Shown one piece after another: positions 3,851 to 43,844 of a stretch of DNA of 64,000 nt. The notes under the pieces are model-generated. The model saw only the letters and a list, made by a program, of their open reading frames with translations, had not been told where the DNA came from and did no database searches. The stretch is from Candidatus Methanomethylicaceae archaeon (GTDB taxonomy: Archaea > Thermoproteota > Methanomethylicia > Methanomethylicales > Methanomethylicaceae): assembly GCA_026414165.1 (NCBI GenBank), contig JAOAJN010000003.1, positions 1 to 64,000 on the forward strand. The letters run 5' to 3'. Every line of letters begins with the position of its first letter. The stretch's first letter is position 1. The translations under genes were made by a program, and so were the position numbers.

Positions 3851-4606
3851 TTACTTACTTTGTATTGGAGAAAGCCAAGTTTTTTCTCCCACAGGGCAGT
3901 TCCTTATGCAAACGCCGCATGCAGATCCCATGTCCCTGAGTTGGTTCCAGTAAACCCAGCACCTCCTCACGTCAGTGCCTCCCTCCACGCTAATCGCTCC
4001 TATCGGGCAAGACCTCACACACTTTTGACATGTATTCGACTGGATCTTCTCTAAGCAAATCTCCCCAGAGAATGCATTTCCTTTAACTAAAGGAGCCTCG
4101 GTGACTATGCTTATCCAGCGCACCCTCGGCCCATATTCCGGAGTCAGCAATACGCCGCATATGCCCTTCTTTCCGAGACCCGCTGCCTCAGCAGCAGCCA
4201 TGTGGTTGAATGATGGAACAAACTTCTGGTAGCCAGCTTCGTACTGCCTCCAGAGCACTTTGTAGTTGTCCGTCTCGGGGAAGTGTATGCTCTCATATCC
4301 GCTTCTCTTAAGAAACTTTGCGACCCCATAAGCCGCGGCGTTTAAACACTCGTTTATTGTATCGTAGTGTTTGCTGTAGATAGTGCTTGGTGTTGTATTG
4401 AGGACATGCTTTATTACAACCATCCCTAGGACGACTACGGACTTCGCTCCCTTTAGGTAGTCTTGCGGACGGTGTCCCTCGGGTGCCGCCTGAAGCAATC
4501 GGTTGAAGGGATCTGCAACGCCAAAGATGTCGGCACCCAAGGATTGTGCATAGTCCCTAACGGACTCTGTAAGCTTCTTTTTATCCCTCACTTTCACTTT
4601 TTGCAT
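3851..4606 (-). CDS. QueG/reductive-dehalogenase-like 4Fe-4S protein
   Basis: A short relative of epoxyqueuosine reductase (QueG). The N-terminal part matches the QueG/DUF1730-type fold that carries cobalamin in QueG (GADIFGVADPF near 24; KGAKSVVVLGM near 52). The C-terminus carries two 4Fe-4S clusters: C193xxC196xxxC200P and C216 with C230xxC233xxxC237P. At 251 aa it lacks the C-terminal extension of true QueG. Probably a soluble corrinoid- or flavin-linked reductase; the substrate is unknown. A second member lies at 33833-34573. Start: the ATG at 4606. Confidence 0.75.
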   Translation of the reverse strand: MQKVKVRDKKKLTESVRDYAQSLGADIFGVADPFNRLLQAAPEGHRPQDYLKGAKSVVVLGMVVIKHVLNTTPSTIYSKHYDTINECLNAAAYGVAKFLKRSGYESIHFPETDNYKVLWRQYEAGYQKFVPSFNHMAAAEAAGLGKKGICGVLLTPEYGPRVRWISIVTEAPLVKGNAFSGEICLEKIQSNTCQKCVRSCPIGAISVEGGTDVRRCWVYWNQLRDMGSACGVCIRNCPVGEKTWLSPIQSK

Positions 4607-27096: not shown

Positions 27097-27873
27097 ATGG
27101 ATATGAAAGAGGTAGCAGAAAAGATCTACAAATACATTAAACCAAAGTCCAAGGTTGTAGGTATAAGATTCTTCAAGAGCAGAACAGAAGCGGAGGGAAT
27201 GCTTAAGGCATTAAGGAGACCGAGAAAAAGACTCACCATATGTCAGATTATAAATACAGCAAGGCTTTATGGATGGACTTGGGCGGTATTCTCAGAGGAC
27301 GTTGATTGTGTTCTTGGATCTTCGGTTCTTGGACTGAGGGAGGTTGATGAGAGCTTTAAAAGTGGAGAGATCTTCATAAAGCTTGGATATGTAACGGACA
27401 GGGATGCGGCAAAGAATTTTGCAGACTCTGTTCCAAAAATGAGGGATAGAGTTGAGGGGTTTGTTGTTGGTCCCTTGGAGGGGCTTGAAGTGCAACCCGA
27501 TCTGGTAATCATATATGGTAACGGGGCTCAGATGATGAGAGTTATAAACGGGGCAGTCTATGCGACTGGAGAGAGGCTCAAATTCGGCGCGATAGGCGAT
27601 ATAGGCATCTGTGGCGATGGTATTGCTGAGGCTTATAACACACAAAAGCCGCAGTTAGTAGTTGCTTGCTATGGAGAGAGGAGGTTCGGACATACATCGG
27701 ACGATGAAATAGCCATGGTCATACCATTCAAATATTTAGAAAAATTTGTTGAGGGACTTGAGAAGACACACAACGCAGGCATAAGATACCCTATTCCGAT
27801 AGCCGCAACCATTGCCGAACTTGACATTCCTGAGGTTTTAAGAGTCCAGCCTAAGGAGAAAGGGCAGCCCTAA
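27097..27873 (+). CDS. DUF169-family protein
   Basis: VVGIRFFKS near 20 and TICQIINTARLYGWTWAV near 47 match DUF169, a family frequent in anaerobic archaea and bacteria and without an established function. The Cys in TICQ and those in CVLGSS and GICGDG are conserved in many members. ATG 27097 follows ahcY by two bases with GGAGGGG eight bases upstream, so it is translated from the ahcY mRNA. The 3' end overlaps the convergent methyltransferase gene by 23 bp. Confidence 0.85.
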   Translation: MDMKEVAEKIYKYIKPKSKVVGIRFFKSRTEAEGMLKALRRPRKRLTICQIINTARLYGWTWAVFSEDVDCVLGSSVLGLREVDESFKSGEIFIKLGYVTDRDAAKNFADSVPKMRDRVEGFVVGPLEGLEVQPDLVIIYGNGAQMMRVINGAVYATGERLKFGAIGDIGICGDGIAEAYNTQKPQLVVACYGERRFGHTSDDEIAMVIPFKYLEKFVEGLEKTHNAGIRYPIPIAATIAELDIPEVLRVQPKEKGQP

Positions 27874-28843
27874 CCATAGCCTTGATGTTCCTCGTAGGGG
27901 TTCGCGGGGCGATACCACAGCTCGGCGCCAATATGTCCACCCCGGAATCTATTGCCTGCTTTGAGGCTTTGAAGACCTCCTCCTCAGTGCCCATCAGAAG
28001 CACTCCTGCGGAGGGAACATTTCCAACTATTGCGACTCTTCTGTCTTTTAGTATAGATTTTGCGGTGTTCAAGTCAACTTTCTCCTCTATGCTGAGAGCA
28101 GAGAAGCCACAGTCGGCCATATGACTCAAGATTGGGGTCGCATTCCCACAGATGTGGAGGATTGACGTCTTTGCCACGTTTGCAATGCTCTTCAGGGGGC
28201 TTTTGGAGAACTTTTCGAACATCCTAGGACTCAAAACCGAGGGCGATGCGGTAGGATCGGCAGGAGCAATAATATCGGCGCCCTCTTGTATCAGAGCTTT
28301 CGTATAAATAACACAAGCATCCTCTGCGGCCTCTATGTATTTCGCGACCTCGTCTGGTTTTTTGATCATCATCAAGCAGAGGCGCTCAACGCCAAGAAGG
28401 TGACCAGCCAATGTGGTAGGTCCTTCGAATCCCACGATTAATGGTACGTCAAACTTCATTTCCTTAATTTTGTGGATAGCATCAAATATTGTCTGGATCC
28501 TGGTACTTTCTAATAGCTTTTCAGTGTTTGGGGTTTTGCCTTGATCGTAAAGGGTTTTTGCAACTGCTGGTTGACGATCGTTCCTACCCCGGTCTATGAT
28601 GCAGCCCATCGACTCGGCCAAGACTGTTAGGCAGAACGGAATCCGGACACCCTCCAAGCCCGCCACGGTGTGTGCAGCCGAGGCCAATTTTGCCATCAGA
28701 TCCGCATCAAAGCTCGCATCCGGCCAGTAAGCCCCAGAAGCCTCCATAAGTTCGCAAGTTCCAGTCTGGGTAGCTGAAAGAACAGACGGACGGTCGACGC
28801 GTTCATAATTTAAAATCTTGAGCGTCCTTTCTTTTGGGGTCAT
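27851..28843 (-). CDS. MtaA/CmuA-type URO-D-fold methyltransferase
   Basis: Uroporphyrinogen decarboxylase-fold protein of the methylcobalamin:thiol methyltransferase type. The Zn motif is intact: SILHICGNATP gives His-x-Cys and LAPSCGIAP gives the third ligand. TPKERTLKILNYERVDRPSV is the family opening. In methanogens MtaA moves a methyl group from a corrinoid protein to coenzyme M; here the acceptor is unknown. ATG 28843 has GGTGAGG just upstream. The gene lies 35 bp after cstA on the same strand, so the two are probably one transcript. Confidence 0.85.
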   Translation of the reverse strand: MTPKERTLKILNYERVDRPSVLSATQTGTCELMEASGAYWPDASFDADLMAKLASAAHTVAGLEGVRIPFCLTVLAESMGCIIDRGRNDRQPAVAKTLYDQGKTPNTEKLLESTRIQTIFDAIHKIKEMKFDVPLIVGFEGPTTLAGHLLGVERLCLMMIKKPDEVAKYIEAAEDACVIYTKALIQEGADIIAPADPTASPSVLSPRMFEKFSKSPLKSIANVAKTSILHICGNATPILSHMADCGFSALSIEEKVDLNTAKSILKDRRVAIVGNVPSAGVLLMGTEEEVFKASKQAIDSGVDILAPSCGIAPRTPTRNIKAMVRAALSP

Positions 28844-28878: not shown

Positions 28879-30555
28879 TTAGAATTCCTCGAACTTGAGG
28901 AACTTCTCCTTCTCCTCGGGCGTGTAGCCACGTCTCCACCTGCGCCTCGCCCACTCAAAGACGTATATTAAGGTCACCACAGCAGCGATGAGCGAAACAG
29001 TTCCAGGAACGACGGCTCCCGCACTATAATTCCACCATGCGCCGTAGATGGATGCGGGAAGGGATATGCCGAGAAGTGTGACCAACATCGCGATCCTCCA
29101 GAATATAGGATTCTTGTCATGAAGTCTGCACCACTCTCCGACAATTATAAAGGAGAAGACCGCTAAGGATGTGGAGAGAATCGGAAATAGAGCCCATATC
29201 TGCAGGTAGGCGCCGCTCAGCGCAAGACCTATGACGAGACAGGCAGTAATTGTGGCAGCGATCCACCTTGAAGCAGAGACATATCTTGTTATCTTCTTCT
29301 TTGTCACTAGTTGGACGAATTCTATACCTAGGACGCGCATGTTTCTGAAGCCCGAATAGAAAGTACTCATTATAAAGACCATCACAACCCACATACCAAA
29401 TACTTTCAGTAGTGTGGGATCCGCGAAAGGCATTATAGAACCTACGATCTTCGCGAAGCCGAGCCCAAAGGCAGCAGTCCATCCAGCCTTTAATGCAGGT
29501 ATATATGTACTGACTGGTAGGACTAGCATCGCCAAGAATGCGGTCCAAAGACCAACGCTTTCGAGAACCTCTCCGCCGTATCCGATAATTCTAACCCACC
29601 TTTCCTCTGGGAAACGCTTACACGTGTAAGCACCTATCCAGAAAACATGCATACCAGTAAGAGCCCCGCATGACACCATCATAGTTATTCCTGGATAGAA
29701 CCACCCGCTGGGAGTCAATGCCTTGTCATAGAATAGGAGGGCAGGATAATCGGTTATGGGGAAGTTTCCCACCAGGGCGCCTAGAAACAGCAAAACAACT
29801 CCAGTAGCCATGTATAAGAACATCATGAAATTTGATGGTTCCGAGTAGAGCCAGTTTGGTAGACATGCCGCCAATATTCCAACTATCGCAAGAAACACGT
29901 ACCATGCTTCAGCAGACATCTTAAACGGATAAAGTAGACCCACATAAATCGCGACAAGAAATATAATGTACTGGATGATGCCGACCAGCCAAATCGGCCA
30001 ACCCTTCCTATAAAGAAGGTAGCCGAAGGGAGGACCTATAACCGCAAGTAAAAGAACGGGGACAAATAGAGCAGGCGTAGAAGTGGTCCCAGCCACAACC
30101 AGTCTGACAAAAGCAGCACAGAAACTGACTATGGCAATATATCCAATAAATGTGAATAAAATTCCCGAGAGAGGTGTTATCCACCTGTATGAGACCTCGC
30201 TGGCGGTCTGTCCACGCTCACGCATCATCACGAAACCTGTGGCGTAGTCGTGGACTGACCCCAAGAATATGTTAACCGGCAATACGTACAAAATGCCCGA
30301 TGCCCAACCCCACTGGGCGATGGCCACACCCCCAGACAGCGGTGCGCCTCCCGCTGTTGCCGCCCAATGATCACCAAATAGAGATATTGGATTTGCGGGG
30401 TAGAAGTCGAAGTCATCTCTAAAGGCGCATGCAGGAGTCTTTCTACTAGGATCTGGAGTGAAGTATGCCTTCTCAAGTCTCTTAGAAACAACGAAGACGC
30501 CAAAGAGATAGAACGCGATTGCTATTATCACTAGGTAGGCAGTAGTCATTTCCAT
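28879..30555 (-). CDS. cstA: CstA-family transporter
   Basis: Polytopic protein of about 15 helices. The conserved CstA start is present: TPACAFRDDFDFYP then GDHWAATAGGAPLSGG (near 60) and GSVHDYATGFVMMRERG (near 97). Known members take up peptides or pyruvate under starvation. 558 aa is shorter than E. coli CstA (about 700) and typical of archaeal and Gram-positive forms. AAGGTG precedes ATG 30555. Pairing with a corrinoid-type methyltransferase is unusual. Confidence 0.9.
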   Translation of the reverse strand: MEMTTAYLVIIAIAFYLFGVFVVSKRLEKAYFTPDPSRKTPACAFRDDFDFYPANPISLFGDHWAATAGGAPLSGGVAIAQWGWASGILYVLPVNIFLGSVHDYATGFVMMRERGQTASEVSYRWITPLSGILFTFIGYIAIVSFCAAFVRLVVAGTTSTPALFVPVLLLAVIGPPFGYLLYRKGWPIWLVGIIQYIIFLVAIYVGLLYPFKMSAEAWYVFLAIVGILAACLPNWLYSEPSNFMMFLYMATGVVLLFLGALVGNFPITDYPALLFYDKALTPSGWFYPGITMMVSCGALTGMHVFWIGAYTCKRFPEERWVRIIGYGGEVLESVGLWTAFLAMLVLPVSTYIPALKAGWTAAFGLGFAKIVGSIMPFADPTLLKVFGMWVVMVFIMSTFYSGFRNMRVLGIEFVQLVTKKKITRYVSASRWIAATITACLVIGLALSGAYLQIWALFPILSTSLAVFSFIIVGEWCRLHDKNPIFWRIAMLVTLLGISLPASIYGAWWNYSAGAVVPGTVSLIAAVVTLIYVFEWARRRWRRGYTPEEKEKFLKFEEF

Positions 30556-33832: not shown

Positions 33833-34573
33833 TTATAAACTGGGCCGAGATCTCCCTACCGGACAAACCTTAATACATATACCACAGACAGGGGCGGCGT
33901 ATGCTGCTTGATAAGGTTTTTGGGCAAACATCTCCTTAAACTTATTCAATCTAGTAGCACATTTCTGGTGTTCAAAGATCTCCTCCCTAGATGAAGGATA
34001 TGACTCAAATTCTGAGTACTTTAAAGCACCCGAAGGGCACGAGTCGACACATAGCCGGCATTTACCACACTGGTTCTTAAGAGGTTTGCCCGGTTTTAGT
34101 GGCATATCTGTTAGTACAGTCCCCAAGCGAACTCTGGGACCATAAACAGGATTAACTAGCAGACCATTACGACCGATCCACCCAACTCCAGCAGCACATG
34201 CGAAAGCTTTATGGGAGGCATGACCCAGCTCCTTCAAGATGTCCACCCTAAGTGACGCGGGAATGACAAGAGTTGAAAACCCCTTCTCTGCTATCCATCC
34301 AGACAATTTTAGTGTTATGGAGTCAATTAACGCATTAGCGGAGTGATAGGCGTGGGCGTATAGTATTCCAGGATCTTCGAGGCTTATTCTCTCCACTGCT
34401 ATGTTGGGAAGCGGGACAGCTACAGATATTGCATACCTAAAATCTTTTAATAGAACACCGCCAAAGGTCGGGAGGTCTTTAAGTAGTAAGAGGTCTGCAA
34501 CGCCAGCTACAGCAGCTCCGGATGACCTTGCGAGCGAGAGGATCTCCTCAGTATCTTTAATAGGATTTTTCAA
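33833..34573 (-). CDS. QueG-like 4Fe-4S protein (second copy)
   Basis: Same architecture as the protein at 3851: SGAAVAGVADLLLLKD then a KDFRYAISVAVPLPN block, and two cluster motifs CGKCRLCVDSCPSGAL and CGICIKVCPVG with a further Cys in HQKCATRL. No catalytic assignment. The start is TTG 34573 with GGGGTG eight bases upstream and a TATA-like CATAAATC at 34608. The two copies differ clearly in sequence, so the duplication is old. Confidence 0.75.
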   Translation of the reverse strand: MKNPIKDTEEILSLARSSGAAVAGVADLLLLKDLPTFGGVLLKDFRYAISVAVPLPNIAVERISLEDPGILYAHAYHSANALIDSITLKLSGWIAEKGFSTLVIPASLRVDILKELGHASHKAFACAAGVGWIGRNGLLVNPVYGPRVRLGTVLTDMPLKPGKPLKNQCGKCRLCVDSCPSGALKYSEFESYPSSREEIFEHQKCATRLNKFKEMFAQKPYQAAYAAPVCGICIKVCPVGRSRPSL

Positions 34574-34722: not shown

Positions 34723-35400
34723 TTAGTCGATTTTGAGTAATCGTCCATTCATAAGGTTGATAATCATGTCCGCGTCCTCGATCAATGACTGCTCAAGGGT
34801 GGTGACTATATAAAGCGACTGAGTCTCCCTTTGCTTCTTCTTTATAATGTTGGCGATTCTTTTCGAGTTCTCAAAGTCAAGATGGGCGGTTGGTTCGTCC
34901 AGTATAACAATTGGTGGCGATCCTATGATTGTTTGGGCAAAACTGACACGCTCATACTCACCGCCACTCAGCTGTGTTGGTTTGTGGTTTATTCTATCAG
35001 AGAGTCCAACCTCTTCCAAAAGTCCTTTAGCAGATTTGATCGCTTTATCCCTGTCTACAAAATTGAAGAGTAGAGGCAGAGCGACATTCTCCAAGATAGT
35101 CAATTGTGGAATCAACACAGGATCCTGCGGCTTAAAGCCTATCTTCTTTCTCCTGAACCAAGCTAACTCGTAGGCACCTAGACGGGAAATCTCTACACCA
35201 TCTATGAAGACAGAGCCCACTGTTGGACTCTCCAGCCCAGAAATTATACGAATTAAGGTGGTCTTGCCAGCCCCGGATGGTCCGGCTATAACCACGATCC
35301 CTTTCTCAGGGAAATCAATAGTCAAAGAGTCCAGTGCAAGAACTTCCTTTCCCGCAACCTCATAAAGTTTTGAGACTGAGTTTACAAAGACCTTAGGTAT
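34723..35400 (-). CDS. ABC transporter ATPase (LolD/MacB type), probable AUA start
   Basis: All ATPase motifs are present: Walker A GPSGAGKTT, Q-loop KPQDP, signature LSGGE, Walker B VILDEPTAH. Homology reaches upstream of the first conventional start (TTG 35325): codons 35398-35326 add PKVFVNSVSKLYEVAGKEV then LALDS, which includes the A-loop Tyr. That extension contains no ATG, GTG or TTG. The only sensible start is ATA 35400, six bases after GGAGGA (35407-35412). The frame is closed by the TAG stop of the corrinoid gene at 35422. Likely partner: an FtsX-type permease. Confidence 0.85.
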   Translation of the reverse strand: MPKVFVNSVSKLYEVAGKEVLALDSLTIDFPEKGIVVIAGPSGAGKTTLIRIISGLESPTVGSVFIDGVEISRLGAYELAWFRRKKIGFKPQDPVLIPQLTILENVALPLLFNFVDRDKAIKSAKGLLEEVGLSDRINHKPTQLSGGEYERVSFAQTIIGSPPIVILDEPTAHLDFENSKRIANIIKKKQRETQSLYIVTTLEQSLIEDADMIINLMNGRLLKID

Positions 35401-35406
35401 AAGCCG

Positions 35407-35412
35407 TCCTCC
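35407..35412 (-). promoter_or_regulatory. Shine-Dalgarno site pointing to an AUA start
   Basis: Minus-strand GGAGGA, with six bases before ATA at 35400-35398. No conventional start codon occurs in frame for another 75 bases. Confidence 0.6.
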
Positions 35413-35421
35413 AAAAAAAGT

Positions 35422-36066
35422 CTATTTGGCGGTTAGGCTCCTCACTATCCCAACCGCCTCAGAGGCGTCCTTCCCCCAGCTGTCTGCCCCTATGGACTTC
35501 GCATAGTCCATGGTCGTTGGAGCCCCGCCTATCATGATCTTAACCTTGTCCCGGTACCCCTCCTTGAGAAGGAGGTCAACCACCTTCTTCATGCCAGGCA
35601 TTGTGGTAGTCATTAGGGCGGACATTCCTATGACTTCGGCTCCATGATCCTTGACAGCCTTTACGAAATCTGACAATGGGACGTCCTTCCCCAAGTCGAT
35701 TACCCTGAACCCAGCGCTGTCCAGCATTATCTTGACCAGGTTCTTGCCGATGTCGTGTATGTCGCCCTCTACCACTCCTAATACAACGGTTATAGGCTTC
35801 GCGGTCTTGTCCACCTTTATATGAGGTTTGAGTATTTCAACTGCCACATTCATGGCACTCGCAGAGAGAAGGACTTCGGGGACGTAGTACTCGCCCTTCT
35901 CGTAGAGCTCGCTCACGACCCTCATGCCCTCAGCGAGCCCTTTCATTATGGCTTCGTATGCGTCAATATTGTTCTTAACGGCTTCCTCGGCCCATTTTTT
36001 TGCTCCTTCCTCATCGCCATCTACCACACATTTCGCAAGGTTCTTGAAGAGTTCCTCCTTATCCAT
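35422..36066 (-). CDS. Corrinoid protein of a methyltransferase system (MtaC/MtgC-like)
   Basis: Carries a methyl group on cobalamin between two methyltransferases. The helical cap domain is at the N-terminus (MDKEELFKNLAKCVVDGDEE), and the B12 site is EGDIHDIGKNLV (DxHxxG) near 97, followed by GMSALMTTTMPGM. 214 aa is normal. ATG 36066 has GGGGGTGG seven bases upstream; the longer frame to 36159 has no family similarity and overlaps the upstream gene. It follows the MtaA-like gene by 11 bases, so the two act as a pair. Confidence 0.92.
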   Translation of the reverse strand: MDKEELFKNLAKCVVDGDEEGAKKWAEEAVKNNIDAYEAIMKGLAEGMRVVSELYEKGEYYVPEVLLSASAMNVAVEILKPHIKVDKTAKPITVVLGVVEGDIHDIGKNLVKIMLDSAGFRVIDLGKDVPLSDFVKAVKDHGAEVIGMSALMTTTMPGMKKVVDLLLKEGYRDKVKIMIGGAPTTMDYAKSIGADSWGKDASEAVGIVRSLTAK

Positions 36067-36077
36067 ATATCCACCCC

Positions 36078-37124
36078 CTACTGGTAAACACCATACTTTT
36101 TGACGGCTTCTACCATGGCTAAAATATTCTCCTGAGGCACTGCCGCAGGGACTATGCATCCAGAGGCCAACACAAACCCACCACCAGTCATTGCCTTCTC
36201 CAAAGCTATTTTACATTCCGCCTCAACATCTCCTGGCGTCTTTTGTAGCAGCGTGACTCCTGGGCTGATGTTTCCCATTATGCAGACTCTATTTCCAATA
36301 AGCGATTTTGCCCTTGCAAGGTCTACCTTTTCATCCACACTTATGGCATCTGCACCAGTATTTGCCATAACCTCTAGTCTGTCGTTAACGTTTCCGCAAA
36401 TATGTAGAAAGACCTTCGTGCCCATCCTCTTTATTGCTCGTATCTCCCTTCTCAAGTAGGGAAATACGAACTCTTCGAATGCCTTCTTTGAAATCATGTC
36501 CCCAGAAGATGTCGGATCCGAGACCCATATGAGGTCTGCTCCAGCTTCAACAACAGCCTCTCCATAAACTATAAGGCTCTCTGTGGCGATCTCTATTAGT
36601 TCTTTTAGTTGGTCAGGGTTCTTTTTCATATCCAGCAATGCCCTCTCTGTACCACGCATCATACAAGTGTGCCTCCAACATGCCTGAACATAGCCCATCA
36701 CGGGTATGACCCCACCAACAGCCTCCTTCATTCTAGAGATGCCCTTCAGTATCATCGGTAAGCGACCATCCTTTCTCGGATGCGGGATCTTTAGCCTAGG
36801 CAGATCCTTAGAGTAGTCATTCACCGCAGGTACATCTACGGAGGGAGGTGCATCAATAGGTATCTTGAGCACACTTCCCATAGCCTCAGACTCTGCATGT
36901 ACAGCCAGAAGATCCAACACCATGTCGTAGCCAAACTTTCGTACCGCGTAAAGTTGTGAATAAACATACTTCTCCGTATTTGTCATGACTTCAGAGAACT
37001 TATACCCAGCTTGACGGACGCACCATTCCCTCACGAATGGGGTTACAGGAACGCGATCTGGTTTTTTGAGCTCAAAAGCAGCCATAAGACGGTCGTAAGG
37101 AGTCATTTCCTCTCTTTGAGACAT
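36078..37124 (-). CDS. MtaA/MtbA-like URO-D-fold methyltransferase
   Basis: FLHICGNVNDRL gives the His-x-Cys zinc ligands and LASGCIVP the third; TPYDRLMAAFELKKPDRVPV is the family opening. Such proteins either demethylate a substrate onto the corrinoid protein (MtoB-type) or move the methyl on to a thiol or folate (MtaA-type); sequence alone does not tell. It is 11 bases before the corrinoid gene. It has its own TATA-like element (37181-37190). It differs well from the other copy at 27851. Confidence 0.88.
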   Translation of the reverse strand: MSQREEMTPYDRLMAAFELKKPDRVPVTPFVREWCVRQAGYKFSEVMTNTEKYVYSQLYAVRKFGYDMVLDLLAVHAESEAMGSVLKIPIDAPPSVDVPAVNDYSKDLPRLKIPHPRKDGRLPMILKGISRMKEAVGGVIPVMGYVQACWRHTCMMRGTERALLDMKKNPDQLKELIEIATESLIVYGEAVVEAGADLIWVSDPTSSGDMISKKAFEEFVFPYLRREIRAIKRMGTKVFLHICGNVNDRLEVMANTGADAISVDEKVDLARAKSLIGNRVCIMGNISPGVTLLQKTPGDVEAECKIALEKAMTGGGFVLASGCIVPAAVPQENILAMVEAVKKYGVYQ

Positions 37125-37180
37125 CTTGCTTCCCGTATTTTATTTTAGCATAATTTATTTTTAAGGCTTGTTAGATATTC

Positions 37181-37190
37181 TTATATAAAA
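37181..37190 (-). promoter_or_regulatory. TATA box of the methyltransferase-corrinoid genes
   Basis: Minus-strand TTTTATATAA about 60 nt before ATG 37124, giving a leader of roughly 35 nt. It suggests the methyltransferase, corrinoid and ABC genes can be transcribed separately from the aldehyde oxidoreductase pair. Confidence 0.4.
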
Positions 37191-37241
37191 ATCAAATAAG
37201 CAAATTATATCAATAAATTATCCATTTTATTTTTATTGCGT

Positions 37242-37517
37242 TCATCCACCATCTACCATTGGTAGGATGCTTATCTCCTCTCCGCCCATAAGTACTTCTG
37301 ACGAGATTGGTATAGGAGCCCGACCGTTGACTAACACTATGACAGCTGCCTTTTCTGTTTGCAGATTTTCCAATAATGGCTTAAGCTTCTCGAAGCGTCC
37401 GACAAGTTTTTTTAAAAAAAGAGGAAGCGGTGTGGGCCCTTCAATTTCGAGTTCCGCCAAGGATGTCCCCGCTGCATCTCTGATGTCTTGGTAGAACTTT
37501 ACACTCACCTTTCCCAT
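37242..37517 (-). CDS. MoaD/ThiS-like ubiquitin-fold sulfur carrier
   Basis: 91 aa, beta-grasp protein ending ISILPMVDGG, the GG tail that MoaD and ThiS use for thiocarboxylate formation. GGEEISILP is the family motif. It begins ten bases after the aldehyde oxidoreductase stop, so it probably supplies sulfur for the tungstopterin of that enzyme. ATG 37517 follows GGGGTTTGCT. Confidence 0.88.
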   Translation of the reverse strand: MGKVSVKFYQDIRDAAGTSLAELEIEGPTPLPLFLKKLVGRFEKLKPLLENLQTEKAAVIVLVNGRAPIPISSEVLMGGEEISILPMVDGG

Positions 37518-37527
37518 AGCAAACCCC

Positions 37528-39378
37528 TTAGCGCAATCTTCCCATCTTTTCTAAGTCATCAGCAATATCCTTTAGACCCAACTCTTCAAGCTTACCCCTT
37601 GTGGGCAGACCTGTTGCAACATCCCATCCTCTGGCTTGGTAGTATTCATCAAGCAGAGGCTCTAGTTCGAATTTCTGCCCTTTTGATGGTCCGTCGGGTA
37701 TTGGCTCCTTGAGGAAGCGGGCAGGCAGAGTGTCGTGCCTTCTGTCAAAGCCTTCCCTGACGTTAAAGGCTTTCTCGACGTTCCAGACCCTTTCTCCTAT
37801 CTTGAGAGCTGATTCGAACCCTCCGAAATCTACTCCTGTAGCAGCCACAACTATTTTCGTTAATAGGTCGGGCTTATGCCATTCGGATCTAGTCGGGAAT
37901 GTGCACCATATGCAGCACTCGCCCCATGTGAGACGGTCTTGGTTGAACTTTGTGAGTTTGCCCTTGCCCTCAAGAGTATAACGATCCACCGGAGTGGGAA
38001 GTCCAAAGACTTCCTGAGTGCCGTAGCCCAGGGCATGGCTACCACCTATGTTTGAGGTAACCATACCTAAACCATGCGCCTTTACGGGACGAGGATCGTA
38101 AGCTGGTAGCTCGAGACCCTTTATGTGAGGGGCAAACTCCTCTGATCCCTTTCCAATCTTCTCTGAGGCGACCTTTACGCCCTCTGCCAAGAGATCTCCG
38201 AACCCTTCCCTGAATGCTATCTTCTTTATGAGCTTCATCATTACTTCCTCATCACGCCACCTGAGCACCATTCCGTCAGTGTCTTTAGTAGTTATTATGC
38301 CCCTCTCAAAGGCCTCTATCGCAAATCCTATGGTGATCCCTGCGGAGATTGTGTCTATGCCATATAGATCAGCAAGTTGGTTCGCCGCTATTGTTGCATC
38401 CAAGTTTGAGATATCCAGCAAACCACCAAAGGTACAGAATGTCTCATATTCCGGTCCATCGACCCATGCCCCTGCATAAGGGCCCTCTTTAACGTAGGTG
38501 AACTTCCAGCAGTTTATGATGCAGTTCGGGCACCCTGCATTTCTTATGGTTTTCCTTACCCGTCCTTCACCATTTAATTTCTCATGATCGGGGAAATAGG
38601 TGCTCCTGAAGTTCTTGTATGGATAGTCGCCTATTTGGTTTATGAGCGTATGTATAGCAGCAGTGCCATATCTTTGCATCCTCTTGGTGCCGTGGGCTGC
38701 GGAGAGTTGGTTGATCTGCTCCTTGACAAGCTCTTTAAGGACATCCTCATTCGCTATTGGTATAGGCTTGTCTCCATAGACTGCTACGGCCTTCAGGTTC
38801 TTCGCGCCCATTATAGCACCCATTCCGCCTCTGCCAAGCTGTCTTGTGCCACATTGAACGATTGCATACTTTACAAGTCGCTCCCCTGCAGGACCTATGA
38901 CTGCAGTCTCTACTCGTGGATTTCGTATCAAGTGGTTTTTGATGATGTATTCAGCCAAGTCGGTGGTTGTGCCCCATAAGGAAGAAGCATCCCCGAATTC
39001 CACATCTCCATTTTCAATGTAAATATAAGTGGGACTTTCAGCCTTGCCCTCAATTATAAGAAAATCGTATCCAGAGCGTTTCAGCATAATCCCAAGGTTG
39101 CTGACGCAACGTGATCGAAAATATGTGCCTGTAGCAGGAGATTTTGTTGTGACGACCCATCCGCTGGAGCAAGCTTGAACAGGAAGACCCGTGAGGGGTC
39201 CAGTGCCCCAAACCATCTTGTTATCTGGTGACAAGGGATCTGTACCAGGAGTCATGATATCATAAAGAAGTCTTGCAGCGATGCCGCGTCCTCCAAGGTA
39301 TTTCCTTATGTAATCTTCTGGCAGTGGGGACTCTGAGACTTTTTTTTCTGTGAGGTTCACTCTTAAGATTTTACCCAT
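37528..39378 (-). CDS. aor: Aldehyde ferredoxin oxidoreductase (tungsten)
   Basis: Oxidises aldehydes to acids with ferredoxin. The N-terminal domain begins GKILRVNLTEKKVSESPLPE; SPATGTYFRSRC and GRGGMGAIMGAKNLKA bind the pterin; CPNCIINC (near 288) and the later Cys in GECCIWC are the 4Fe-4S ligands. About 616 aa, normal. The start is ATG 39378 with AAGGTG five bases upstream, not the ATG 15 bases before. Followed by a MoaD-like gene. The substrate among AOR, FOR and GAPOR types is undetermined. Confidence 0.92.
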   Translation of the reverse strand: MGKILRVNLTEKKVSESPLPEDYIRKYLGGRGIAARLLYDIMTPGTDPLSPDNKMVWGTGPLTGLPVQACSSGWVVTTKSPATGTYFRSRCVSNLGIMLKRSGYDFLIIEGKAESPTYIYIENGDVEFGDASSLWGTTTDLAEYIIKNHLIRNPRVETAVIGPAGERLVKYAIVQCGTRQLGRGGMGAIMGAKNLKAVAVYGDKPIPIANEDVLKELVKEQINQLSAAHGTKRMQRYGTAAIHTLINQIGDYPYKNFRSTYFPDHEKLNGEGRVRKTIRNAGCPNCIINCWKFTYVKEGPYAGAWVDGPEYETFCTFGGLLDISNLDATIAANQLADLYGIDTISAGITIGFAIEAFERGIITTKDTDGMVLRWRDEEVMMKLIKKIAFREGFGDLLAEGVKVASEKIGKGSEEFAPHIKGLELPAYDPRPVKAHGLGMVTSNIGGSHALGYGTQEVFGLPTPVDRYTLEGKGKLTKFNQDRLTWGECCIWCTFPTRSEWHKPDLLTKIVVAATGVDFGGFESALKIGERVWNVEKAFNVREGFDRRHDTLPARFLKEPIPDGPSKGQKFELEPLLDEYYQARGWDVATGLPTRGKLEELGLKDIADDLEKMGRLR

Positions 39379-39502: not shown

Positions 39503-40723
39503 ATGGTCTGGTCTGCATTCGGCGCATTGTTTGACCCTGACGAGGGCAGAGATTCAATTCAAAGAAAGATAGAAGAGGTAATTAAAGGTATAAGACCAGC
39601 AAATCCATACAGGGCGGTGCTTTGCTCTGAAGAGGTTGTAGGGTTGAATATCAGAGATTGCGGGGAGGTTCCGATAGAGAGCTGGCTTTCTATATATCCA
39701 GTTCAGGATGACCTTTTCATGCTCACGAGTGCCAATTTCGGGATCTTCCTAGATTCTGATGGGTGCAGAGAGTATAAGGAGAAAGTGAGGGAGTATGCAA
39801 GAGGATTGGAAAGACCACTAATGATAGGGGGCGATCATAGTCTTACGGGCGGGGTCGTTGAAGCTTTAATTGATAAGTACGAAGATTTGCTACTAGTTGT
39901 ACTTGATTCCCATTTTGACGGTATACCCTCGCCGATAAGGAACGAATTGATCGGATATATGATGGAGAGCAGACCAGATTATGAAAGGTTCGGATACAAG
40001 CCTTCTGATTATGTATTCAGTTCTGCGGGTAGGAAAAATAGCTACAATGGGGGATCATTCCTCTACCACTTAATTAACGAAGGCATAATAAATGCTGAAA
40101 ATGTTGTAGTCTTCGGCCCTTTGGACTATCCGACCGAGAAAATGGAGAGGATCCAGGATCATCGAGTGAAAGAATTTGTTCAGACATATAAAGCTCTAGA
40201 GAATGAGGGTGTCAAGATCGTTCATAGGGGAATAATAGATTCTCTTGGTCTCGAGAAGGTCATCAATGATTGCGTGGGTCCAAAATTTGCAGCCAGTAAC
40301 ATTTACATATCAGTTGATTTAGACATCGGCTCAAGATCGGCGCTAATGGGAGCTAAATTCACAGACATAGAGGGCCTTAAGGAGGCAAGCATTTACATGT
40401 TATTAAGAGCGCTATACAAAAACGCGAGTAACATAATAGGTTTAGATCTCATGGAGATAGATCCTTGGAGGGCAGGTCTCATCAGAGACGGTGTAAAGGA
40501 TAGAACTTACAACATCTGTGGCAACATAATAAGAATACTAACTGATGGCAACATATATCTACAAAAAAGGTACAAGGAAGTTTTAGAAAAAATTTCTCCC
40601 AAGACTATGCTCAAAGAAATTGGTGATAAAAAATTGCTTGATGAGCTTATCAATATGGGATTCCTTGAATTATCTGGAAAATATTTGAATGTGCTTTATG
40701 ATGGTGAAGTCTTATCCTCATAA
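39503..40723 (+). CDS. Divergent arginase/agmatinase-fold protein with C-terminal extension
   Basis: The ureohydrolase metal ligands are all kept: GGDHS (near 111), DSHFD (near 134-138) and the DLD of SVDLDIGS (near 274). The Asp-Pro that normally follows (SxDxDxxDP) is replaced by GSRS. It has an extra N-terminal region of about 105 residues and a C-terminal tail of about 60 that looks like a small helical domain. At 406 aa it is about 100 longer than agmatinase. Substrate unknown; formimidoylglutamase-like or other guanidino compounds are possible. A canonical agmatinase is encoded at 50525. Confidence 0.72.
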   Translation: MVWSAFGALFDPDEGRDSIQRKIEEVIKGIRPANPYRAVLCSEEVVGLNIRDCGEVPIESWLSIYPVQDDLFMLTSANFGIFLDSDGCREYKEKVREYARGLERPLMIGGDHSLTGGVVEALIDKYEDLLLVVLDSHFDGIPSPIRNELIGYMMESRPDYERFGYKPSDYVFSSAGRKNSYNGGSFLYHLINEGIINAENVVVFGPLDYPTEKMERIQDHRVKEFVQTYKALENEGVKIVHRGIIDSLGLEKVINDCVGPKFAASNIYISVDLDIGSRSALMGAKFTDIEGLKEASIYMLLRALYKNASNIIGLDLMEIDPWRAGLIRDGVKDRTYNICGNIIRILTDGNIYLQKRYKEVLEKISPKTMLKEIGDKKLLDELINMGFLELSGKYLNVLYDGEVLSS

Positions 40724-40957: not shown

Positions 40958-42286
40958 TCATTTCATAGATCTTTCAAGTAGTTGCAGGATGTCTCCGATC
41001 TCAAGACCGAATTTTCCAGATTCTTCGTTGCGTCTAAGATTTAGCACACAGAAAGGACAAGCGCTGGATACATATGATGCGCCCACCAGTTTCGCTTCCT
41101 TGAGTCTTTCCGTGGCTGCAAAATTGGCAAGCTCAGGGTAGGCAGACATTACGCCCGCACCCGCACCACAACACCATGCATGGTGCGCAGTCCTCTCAAA
41201 TTCTACAAACTTTAACTCCGGTATGTTAGAGAGGATATCTCTGGGCTCATCGAACACTCCGACATGGCGACCCAAGTGGCACGGATCGTGGTATGTTACC
41301 ACTTTATCGGTAGCTCTGCTCTTTGGTTTAAGCCTGCCGCTACTCAAGTACTCGCTGAATAGTTGTGAAGAGTGCAATACCTCAAATGAGGGCTTAGAAC
41401 CACCGAACTTTCTGTATCCTTCGTGAAACTGTCGGAAGCAGCCAGCGCAAGAAGTTATCAGTCGCGTTATTCCGAGGTCTTCTATTTTGGCGATGTTGTG
41501 TTCATATGTCTCCTTAGCCTCTTCCCATAGACCAGTCATGTATAAAGGAGAACCGCAGCACCACTCGTCCCCCCCGAGTATTGTAAAGTCAGCGTTGGCT
41601 GCCGAAAGAAGAGAGACTGTGGCCTCACAAACATCCGGAGTTCTGTATGGACCCGTGCATCCTGCGAAGTACAAAATCTCTGCACCCTTCTTCTGGGGGG
41701 CCACGCTCTTCTTCAACCAAGCAAATCTTTTCTCTGGCGGTTCAGCGTAGGGGTTGTGGTACTCTTTTATATAGTTTGCAAACTTCTTGTGTGCGGCAGG
41801 GGGCGCTATGCCCATCTTAACGAAGGTCCTTCTGAGAGCCATTACGGATACTACTGGGTCGCTCCCAATTCCCATACTGCACTGCAAAGTGCAGTTTCCG
41901 CAAAGGTTGCAGAAGTATGCAACATCCACGAGTTCTGGCGTCGGCTTTATGAAGCCCTGCAAAAGACCCAAAACAGTCATATGCTTCCCTTGTCCTCTGT
42001 ACGCCGCCTGCCTGTAGTGTGCAGGGTATGTGGCAGTTGGGCAGTTCATAGCCCAATTCGCCATTGAGGACATTTCACACTGCCCACAGACCCAGCATCG
42101 GACAGCCTCAAATTTGGCTGCTGCGAGATCCGGGTACTCGTTATCCTTGGGGAAGGCTATATTCACCCATTCACGAGGCGTTTTATCCAGACTGGCGTGT
42201 GTTATGAACGGTACAAATTCTATGTTTTTATATATTAAGGGTATTTTTCTCTCTACCTCAGTCACTTGAACCACCCACCTACCCAT
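40958..42286 (-). CDS. HdrD/GlcF-like Fe-S subunit with CCG domains
   Basis: Two 4Fe-4S motifs in the N-terminal half (CWVCGQCEMSS with NCPTA, and CNLCGNCTLQCSMG) and two CCG domains (YFAGCTGPYR with WCCGSP; SCAGCFRQF with WCCGAGAG). This is the electron-accepting subunit paired with FAD-dependent 2-hydroxyacid dehydrogenases (GlcDF type) and also the HdrD fold. It overlaps the FAD gene by eight bases. A GTG at codon 8, preceded by GGTGG, is an alternative start. Confidence 0.87.
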   Translation of the reverse strand: MGRWVVQVTEVERKIPLIYKNIEFVPFITHASLDKTPREWVNIAFPKDNEYPDLAAAKFEAVRCWVCGQCEMSSMANWAMNCPTATYPAHYRQAAYRGQGKHMTVLGLLQGFIKPTPELVDVAYFCNLCGNCTLQCSMGIGSDPVVSVMALRRTFVKMGIAPPAAHKKFANYIKEYHNPYAEPPEKRFAWLKKSVAPQKKGAEILYFAGCTGPYRTPDVCEATVSLLSAANADFTILGGDEWCCGSPLYMTGLWEEAKETYEHNIAKIEDLGITRLITSCAGCFRQFHEGYRKFGGSKPSFEVLHSSQLFSEYLSSGRLKPKSRATDKVVTYHDPCHLGRHVGVFDEPRDILSNIPELKFVEFERTAHHAWCCGAGAGVMSAYPELANFAATERLKEAKLVGASYVSSACPFCVLNLRRNEESGKFGLEIGDILQLLERSMK

Positions 42287-43844
42287 ACTCGAAGGGTATG
42301 TTGAACCCTAGCCATGGAGCCATAATATTGTTTGGATCAACGGCACGTTTGATCCTCTGATATAGTTCAAAGAAGCCAGGGTCCATGTGCTGCGAAACCA
42401 CTTTTGCACCAAGACCGAAGCACCTTGCAGGAACGAATCCGCCCTCACGTATGACCCTTGGGATGACCTCCCCGAAGAATGCGGCATATTTCTTAACACC
42501 CTCGCCGTCGCCACGCTCGATTGGGACCATGTACCTCACATGGGAAACCCTTCCCTCGTTTATAGGTATCACATGTAGTGCTGGAACAAGTCCGTGCTTT
42601 CTGCCAACGCTCCAAGTTATATCATGAAGTTTGGGAAGGGCGCTGTTTCCCACGCTTCCGTAGAAGCTCCATATATGCCCTGGGACCCAACCGCAGTACC
42701 TTATGCGCTGGTTACCAGGTTCGCCTTCGCCTATGCCACCGTACATTTTTATTGATGCTTCTATCTCCCCGAACTTTATGCCCGGGCAGTTATCAGGAGT
42801 CAACTCAGTAACCTCAGGGTGCGATGAGAGGTAGGCAGACCAGTATTTCTCCCAGAGCTTAGCCTCGTCCTCTGACTGGTAGTGTGGGGTGCAAGCGAGC
42901 ATGTAGAAATACTGCGTACCTTCGCCTGGGAAGCCATAGTATTCCCGCATTTTGACTATATCATCATCAGTCAAGTCGTAGAGCTTCTTTTTCTGGTCGA
43001 AGCCCCAATACGGCGCTATATTAGTCCCGTGAAGTACAAATAGTAACCAGTGACCTCCTGAGGTATTAGGTGCCAATTTTGTATACATAACCTTTGAAAG
43101 ATTCTTTGCTAGCTCATCACACTTTTTAATTCCCAGAAACTTGACGGTCAGTGCTTTTGGTTTTGGCCATAGTTTTATCGCTGCCTTTGTGACTACCCCA
43201 AGGGTACCAAGCGCTCCGACAAAGATCCTAGTCAGTTGTGGACCAAAGCCCAGATCAAATGTGTATTTACATGAAGATATGGGTAAACTCCAAGACCCAG
43301 TATGTGCAATCTCTCCAGTGGGCAGGACTGCCTCCAGTGCCATTATTGCTTCTTGATTTCCATCACTTACCGAAGTCATATTCATGCCTATGCCCTTAAA
43401 CAGGAAGTTGGCAACTATGGAGGTGTTCGGAGGGGCAGTAGTGGTCGGAATTACTAGATCGATATTCTTCGAACGCAAATATCTGTAGAACTGATTGAAG
43501 GTTACACCTGCATCTATAACGGCATATCCTTCCTCAACATTAACCTCATGGATTCTGTTCATTCTAACTGTTTGGAGCAGTATGCCGCTGTAACAGGGGA
43601 GTTTGTAGGAGTACGCACTAGCCACATGCACAGGTACCTTATATCGGTTTGCCATAAGGATAATGTCTTGAACCTCGAATTCATTTGCAGGTCTTACGAT
43701 GTAGTCGGGCATCTTTGGCGGTTTGCCCGGAAATATTTGGAGCCAAGCATCATATACCTCTGCGAAGATTCTGCCTGGATCAGATATCACGTTTGCAGGA
43801 CCAACGATAGCCTCTAACTCCTTAAGAACCAATTCGTTTGGCAT
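42279..43844 (-). CDS. FAD-linked oxidase/dehydrogenase (GlcD / vanillyl-alcohol oxidase family)
   Basis: PDYIVRPANEFEVQDIILMA opens the FAD-binding PCMH domain; GALGTLGVVTKAAIKLWPKP is its last strand; a C-terminal FAD-oxidase domain follows. Paired with the HdrD-like subunit it should oxidise a 2-hydroxyacid (lactate, glycolate) or an aromatic alcohol and pass electrons to Fe-S clusters. I begin at ATG 43844; 17 more in-frame residues upstream look non-coding. About 521 aa. The substrate is unresolved. Confidence 0.87.
   Translation of the reverse strand: MPNELVLKELEAIVGPANVISDPGRIFAEVYDAWLQIFPGKPPKMPDYIVRPANEFEVQDIILMANRYKVPVHVASAYSYKLPCYSGILLQTVRMNRIHEVNVEEGYAVIDAGVTFNQFYRYLRSKNIDLVIPTTTAPPNTSIVANFLFKGIGMNMTSVSDGNQEAIMALEAVLPTGEIAHTGSWSLPISSCKYTFDLGFGPQLTRIFVGALGTLGVVTKAAIKLWPKPKALTVKFLGIKKCDELAKNLSKVMYTKLAPNTSGGHWLLFVLHGTNIAPYWGFDQKKKLYDLTDDDIVKMREYYGFPGEGTQYFYMLACTPHYQSEDEAKLWEKYWSAYLSSHPEVTELTPDNCPGIKFGEIEASIKMYGGIGEGEPGNQRIRYCGWVPGHIWSFYGSVGNSALPKLHDITWSVGRKHGLVPALHVIPINEGRVSHVRYMVPIERGDGEGVKKYAAFFGEVIPRVIREGGFVPARCFGLGAKVVSQHMDPGFFELYQRIKRAVDPNNIMAPWLGFNIPFEYG

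Follow-up and report, generated by a model that had tools for sequence, protein, structure and literature searches.

An aldehyde oxidoreductase-linked corrinoid methyltransferase gene block conserved in Methanomethylicaceae: a candidate methyl-catabolic module

Why does a methanogen of the Methanomethylicaceae carry a tungsten-type aldehyde:ferredoxin oxidoreductase (AOR) next to a methyltransferase (MT) and its corrinoid protein? The question is raised by a 64,000-nucleotide stretch of a Candidatus Methanomethylicaceae genome (assembly GCA_026414165.1, contig JAOAJN010000003.1, here C33, positions 1-64000), referred to below as the window; the genome, G000, has 1.19 Mb in 42 contigs and is 85.7% complete. 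Few substrates have been proven for methanogens outside the Euryarchaeota, and methyl reduction in them is thought to depend on H2. The gene module of this locus is real and conserved, and it names a small enzyme set through which a new substrate for methanogenesis, and a supply of electrons independent of H2, might be established.

The directed block of five genes described in the original prediction is borne out, with all genes intact on the minus strand. These include the AOR (37528-39378; AFOR_N 228 bits, AFOR_C 431 bits), a MoaD/ThiS-like sulfur carrier ending in GG (37242-37517), a corrinoid MT of the uroporphyrinogen decarboxylase (URO-D) superfamily (36078-37124; 266.7 bits), a methyltransferase-cognate corrinoid protein (35422-36066; B12-binding and B12-binding_2 domains, with DIHDIG as its DxHxxG motif) and an ATP-binding cassette (ABC) ATPase (34723 to ~35382, start uncertain). 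The intergenic gaps are 10 bases between AOR and MoaD, 117 between MoaD and MT, 11 between MT and the corrinoid gene (the open reading frame of the latter starts at 36066, not at 36159) and ~39 between the corrinoid and ABC genes. The prediction was right on these genes and overlooked that the same-strand set resumes upstream, after one opposite-strand gene, with a flavoprotein (FAD_binding_4/FAD-oxidase_C; 42279-43844) and an HdrD/TfrB-like iron-sulfur protein (40958-42286), which together span 40958-43844; it also overlooked a second, diverged version of the set in related genomes. The window's AOR, MT and flavoprotein are called version A, and the second set version B.

Here it is proposed, tentatively and at somewhat less than even confidence, that the block serves a methyl-reducing methanogen as a catabolic module, coupling demethylation to methane with oxidation of the substrate remainder or of a co-substrate. 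The URO-D protein, as substrate-specific methyltransferase (MT1), would move a methyl group from a methylated compound to the adjacent corrinoid protein, and MtaA, the methylcobamide:coenzyme M (CoM) methyltransferase encoded at 27851-28843 on the minus strand and the probable acceptor enzyme (MT2), would hand it to CoM for reduction to methane by methyl-coenzyme M reductase (Mcr), with a RACo-type protein reactivating the corrinoid protein. The AOR, with its MoaD-like carrier, would convert an aldehyde to an acid and reduce ferredoxin, and the flavoprotein/HdrD-like pair would oxidise an alcohol or 2-hydroxy acid and pass the electrons to the CoM-coenzyme B (CoB) heterodisulfide. There is good support for reading the methyl-transfer half as a corrinoid system; its link to oxidation gains from the recurrence of the gene set and is weakened by genomes in which the MT is retained by itself. 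A bolder form, which we consider unlikely, would have a single compound act as methyl donor and as electron donor, its alcohol and aldehyde parts being oxidised after demethylation by the AOR and by the flavoprotein/HdrD-like pair (the latter directly to the heterodisulfide), in methane formation without H2 by a five-family module assembled at least twice.

Sixty-one genomes were compared, 22 of the same family and 39 others. All 22 family genomes have mcrA, which in the window's own genome lies on the same contig (C33:96005-96385), so that the earlier description of a window without mcr is true of the window and not of its contig. The two partners that the original prediction left to be sought elsewhere in the genome, a corrinoid activase and an acceptor, are both present: RACo-type activases are encoded in all 22 family genomes (the window genome's own copy also on C33, beyond the window) and MtaA lies 7 kb downstream of the block. 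Thus the genome holds an MT1 candidate, a corrinoid protein, an MT2 and an activase, with roles assigned from their families. A role of the AOR solely in corrinoid reactivation is possible, but was set aside in view of the activase already present in every family genome. Neither MtaB nor MttB was found in any of the eight genomes with version-A genes, so that other methyl routes in them are few.

Orthologues of the MT (83-94% identity) were found in 10 of the 22 family genomes (G000, G002, G003, G008, G009, G011, G012, G013, G018 and G021) and in none of the 39 others; in G003, G009 and G012 the identity is 88-94%, compared with 92.5-98.6% for McrA in the same genomes. The MT and corrinoid genes are adjacent in all ten (the corrinoid gene being cut by a contig end in two), which upholds their earlier description as a pair. 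The order AOR-MoaD-MT-corrinoid, whose conservation in relatives the original prediction had left to be checked, is kept in seven family genomes (G000, G002 with the corrinoid gene cut, G003, G008, G009, G012 and G013) belonging to three genera, and is therefore more than chance. The run MT-corrinoid-ABC is complete in eight of the ten orthologue loci; contig ends interrupt the remaining two. The flavoprotein/HdrD-like pair is contiguous with the AOR-MoaD-MT-corrinoid genes in six of the seven genomes and with the AOR of G001. Version-A flavoproteins (82-97% identity) occur in eight family genomes, the same eight that have the version-A AOR (the seven and G001), and no other flavoprotein exceeds 41% identity; since these eight genomes span three genera, the co-distribution does not represent eight independent events. 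A scan of genome contigs with the flavoprotein alignment, in which the best 80 of 480 loci were considered, gave version A at one locus only (L050, Methanomethylicota WYZ-LMO10, 97%), and at the threshold used none of the other 79 had an AOR together with an MT or corrinoid gene. One of these 79, L055, has no AOR but carries CstA-MtaA genes at a distance of 5 kb from a flavoprotein-HdrD pair that is accompanied by an arginase-like gene. No account of an AOR-linked corrinoid MT module was found in the titles and abstract openings of the searched literature, a search outside which most subscription papers fall.

Version B comprises diverged AOR, MoaD, flavoprotein, HdrD-like and MT genes and is found in G006, in G001 and probably in G011. 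The five genes are contiguous in G006 in the order AOR-MoaD-flavoprotein-HdrD-like-MT, with an arginase-like gene nearby. Identity to the window's proteins is 30-38% for the AOR, the flavoprotein (in part), the HdrD-like protein and the MT. G001, of the same genus as the window, has version-B MoaD-flavoprotein-HdrD-like-MT genes directly upstream of a corrinoid gene whose product is 93-94% identical to that of the window, and its version-B AOR (70% to that of G006) lies at the edge of another contig; the orthologue search in the 61 genomes found no version-A MT in it. This arrangement gives the impression of a swapped substrate part and a retained carrier. The version-B genes of G011 are spread over separate contigs, with AOR (69%) and MoaD, MT (63%) and a probable flavoprotein. 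All three genomes have an amino-acid permease gene divergent from the version-B AOR (Pfam checked in G001 and G006). A third type of link, in which a corrinoid gene comes directly after the AOR together with MtmB-type genes, is present in G004, G014, G018, G020 and G021, as well as in G010 and G019 by place only; Pfam was used to test the identity of MtmB in G004 and in G000, with frames free of in-frame stops. Overall, the family has 73 AOR places, of which 17 have a corrinoid gene no more than 6 kb away where chance would give 3.6; shared ancestry inflates this excess. At two loci (L145 3884-12369 and L146 8183-14046), an AOR and an iron-sulfur protein share their neighbourhood with a corrinoid gene and with two MtmB genes; the MtmB frames have no in-frame stop and are apparently without pyrrolysine.

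Several observations weigh against a single module. G018 and G021 have MT-corrinoid-ABC with no AOR at the locus, no version-A AOR among the matches listed and no version-A flavoprotein, and in G011 the MT lies beside IlvE and a contig end, again with neither version-A gene, its contig being cut; the function of the MT therefore does not need the AOR or flavoprotein. An arginase-like gene on the opposite strand interrupts the version-A set, no corrinoid gene follows version B in G006, and AOR-MoaD-flavoprotein-CCG genes occur without MT in G020:C20 (counts for G020 need care, its contigs L043, L130, L164 and L202 looking bacterial by their sugar catabolism and transposase genes). Flavoprotein-HdrD pairs are widespread without an MT nearby. 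The only cultured relative, the isolate Methanosuratincola petrocarbonis, which is not known to carry version A, needs H2: it used methanol and monomethylamine with H2 and not lactate or formate as donors, according to the available part of its description (PMC12244365). The block may instead be two neighbouring and functionally separate units, MT-corrinoid(-ABC) on one side and AOR with flavoprotein/HdrD-like protein for general aldehyde or hydroxy-acid oxidation on the other, within a conserved energy-metabolism neighbourhood. That the halves might be two units had been anticipated, and G018 and G021 show them to be separable. This reading, which we hold to be somewhat unlikely, is also favoured by the order of the other genes in the 20-kb region, which is likewise kept, and by the 117-base gap, which holds a TATA-like sequence (TTTATATAAG, 37180-37189, minus strand) between the MoaD and MT genes. 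The TATA-like box of the original prediction is indeed there, and a similar sequence is seen in the two genomes of the same genus; in the other genera this gap measures just 43-51 bases. Against separate units are the reunion of the same families in version B, in a different gene order, and the excess of AOR places near corrinoid genes, related and not independent as these places are. The position of the MT itself bears on the proposed module in another way. It has 348 amino acids and the HxC...C zinc-type motif (H241, C243 and C323, each unchanged in all 14 aligned rows) seen in MtaA and MtbA, and its best solved relative is the MtbA-type 4ay7 (2.9e-40). This could point to an MT2, which would take the methyl group off the corrinoid protein and load it onto a thiol, for instance CoM, with the MT1 encoded elsewhere. 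Its scores are nevertheless below the cut-offs of TIGR01463 (214.9/235.4), MtaA (183.5/400) and MtbA (161.8/600). In a tree of 71 rows, made by a quick method and with sixteen long end branches flagged, it falls outside a 32-row MtaA/MtbA-type clade (Shimodaira-Hasegawa-like approximate likelihood ratio test, SH-aLRT, 93), hence its reading as an MT1. That clade includes Methanococcoides enzymes that exceed the MtaA and MtbA cut-offs, as well as the window's MtaA, which is over the NCBIfam cut-offs; identity of the MT with MtaA was rejected on both grounds. A true MtaA only 7 kb away, and no other MT1 type in the block, also speak against an MT2, which appears quite unlikely. An MT1 is the likelier, though putative, role: the MT forms its own clade of nine rows (support 100), while the long branches and an approximately unbiased (AU) test that does not reject it as sister of the MtaA/MtbA clade (p = 0.379) weigh on the other side. 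The haem enzyme HemE was rejected as its identity, given 95.1 bits against a cut-off of 302.95 and the zinc-type motif.

As for the substrate of the proposed module, the redox genes allow two further readings. The AOR belongs to the family and is nearest to Pyrococcus furiosus AOR (1aor, 5.4e-130); the CxxCxxxC motif and later Cys are kept and Glu and His align, residues that we take to have the same roles as in the P. furiosus enzyme. The FAD (flavin adenine dinucleotide) half of the flavoprotein is nearest to vanillyl-alcohol oxidase (VAO), eugenol oxidase and p-cresol methylhydroxylase (best 4.8e-27), with 1.4e-14 for the best D-2-hydroxy-acid dehydrogenase-like entry. If phenols of lignin or coal type were used by a methoxydotrophic route, the flavoprotein would act on a benzylic alcohol, the AOR on the aldehyde, and the MT would O-demethylate. 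The C-terminal, substrate half of the flavoprotein aligns weakly (4-12 bits), having diverged too far to be assigned, and the Tyr-Arg pair near its end, presumably the phenol binders, is not aligned; an AlphaFold2 model from seven sequences is poor (mean predicted local distance difference test score 56), and therefore no active-site claim rests on it. Version B of the flavoprotein is near-equal in its matches to D-lactate dehydrogenase (1.2e-21) and eugenol oxidase (8.9e-23), which also tells against phenols. The MT clade groups as weak sister (SH-aLRT 90) with four rows, one of them tested as CdmB-like, and CdmB-like enzymes are, in the accessible part of PMC13222342, kin of O-demethylases. 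However, the MT is short, and CdmB (9rui) matches only its residues 156-347 (5.3e-17), not its full length; in the control row L172 CdmB was the sole match (8.6e-34, residues 196-444 of 446). We judge this route very unlikely. Least probable of those weighed is an S-methyl compound derived from methionine (hydroxy acid, methional or 3-methylthiopropionate), with the flavoprotein and AOR acting on the side chain and the MT S-demethylating. A branched-chain aminotransferase gene adjoins the flavoprotein gene, but such an IlvE might have its role in normal amino-acid biosynthesis; the permease beside version-B AOR would fit, but scores under every NCBIfam cut-off. The zinc-type motif is that of thiol-acting kin and the nearest AOR is that of P. 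furiosus, and still no decarboxylating step was identified.

Both halves of the proposed module have known counterparts. As in the MtaABC methanol system and MtaA/MtbA/MtsA, an MT of URO-D fold, a corrinoid protein, MtaA and Mcr occur in one organism; in contrast to them, the MT of the block is outside their clade and under their model cut-offs, and the version-A genomes are without MtaB. The O-demethylases MtoABCD, MtvABC, VdmB and OdmB and the chloromethane system CdmBCA likewise have a URO-D superfamily MT1 and a corrinoid protein demethylating an organic compound, whereas the pair described here has AOR and flavoprotein/HdrD genes linked to it and probably passes its methyl group to CoM through MtaA; CdmB is also longer (429 amino acids). 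The AOR keeps the cluster and catalytic positions of 1aor and differs in that genes for a MoaD-like carrier and for a corrinoid methyltransferase accompany its own. The HdrD-like protein has two Cys-rich CCG motifs (C-x-CCG-x-CxxC, noncubane cluster type), and its heterodisulfide reductase activity is putative. With the flavoprotein, it is by sequence a paralogue of the hdrD-glcD complex, proposed for CoM/CoB regeneration in Verstraetearchaeota with "unknown methylated compounds" as substrates in the part of Hua et al. 2019 available (PMC6783470). Other flavoprotein-HdrD copies are found in most family genomes; unlike these general forms, the window pair is confined to 8 of the 22 and linked to AOR and MT.

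The remaining features of the neighbourhood include the opposite-strand arginase-family gene (39503-40723, plus strand), conserved in place and with a product far below the agmatinase and arginase cut-offs; arginase-like genes also lie beside flavoprotein-HdrD pairs in L055, L069 and L076. The ABC ATPase has Walker and signature motifs, and a role as substrate importer was rejected: its kin are LolD/FtsE-like, and an FtsX-like gene (putative, with no Pfam match) comes after it in G008 and G012. An iron-sulfur protein conserved near the ABC gene (33833-34573, minus strand) resembles the iron-sulfur parts of QueG and reductive dehalogenases, as does a second small one at 3851-4606. The CstA-family transporter adjoining MtaA (28879-30555, minus strand) is among the best-conserved genes of the region (97% in G003; 78-91% in L037, L039, L041 and L044).

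A divergent second McrA is present in four family genomes, G011, G013, G018 and G021 (L036 403-2362, L037 2794-6938, L138 10933-14956 and L139 941-5058); in G013 it has mcrB and mcrG alongside, and its alpha subunit scores 534.6 bits against a cut-off of 767.75. It is adjoined by a further corrinoid gene, plus a URO-D gene in G011, G018 and G021; it adjoins the orthologue of the window MT in G018 and G021, and MtaA-CstA in G013. Another URO-D/corrinoid pair is found in the window's genome (G000:C38, L045 8057-9801), with a URO-D protein over the TIGR01463 and PRK06252 cut-offs and under that of MtaA_Meth, and genomes of the same genus have a further such pair with a CCG iron-sulfur gene upstream (L135 6134-9105; L136; L205 5670-8698).

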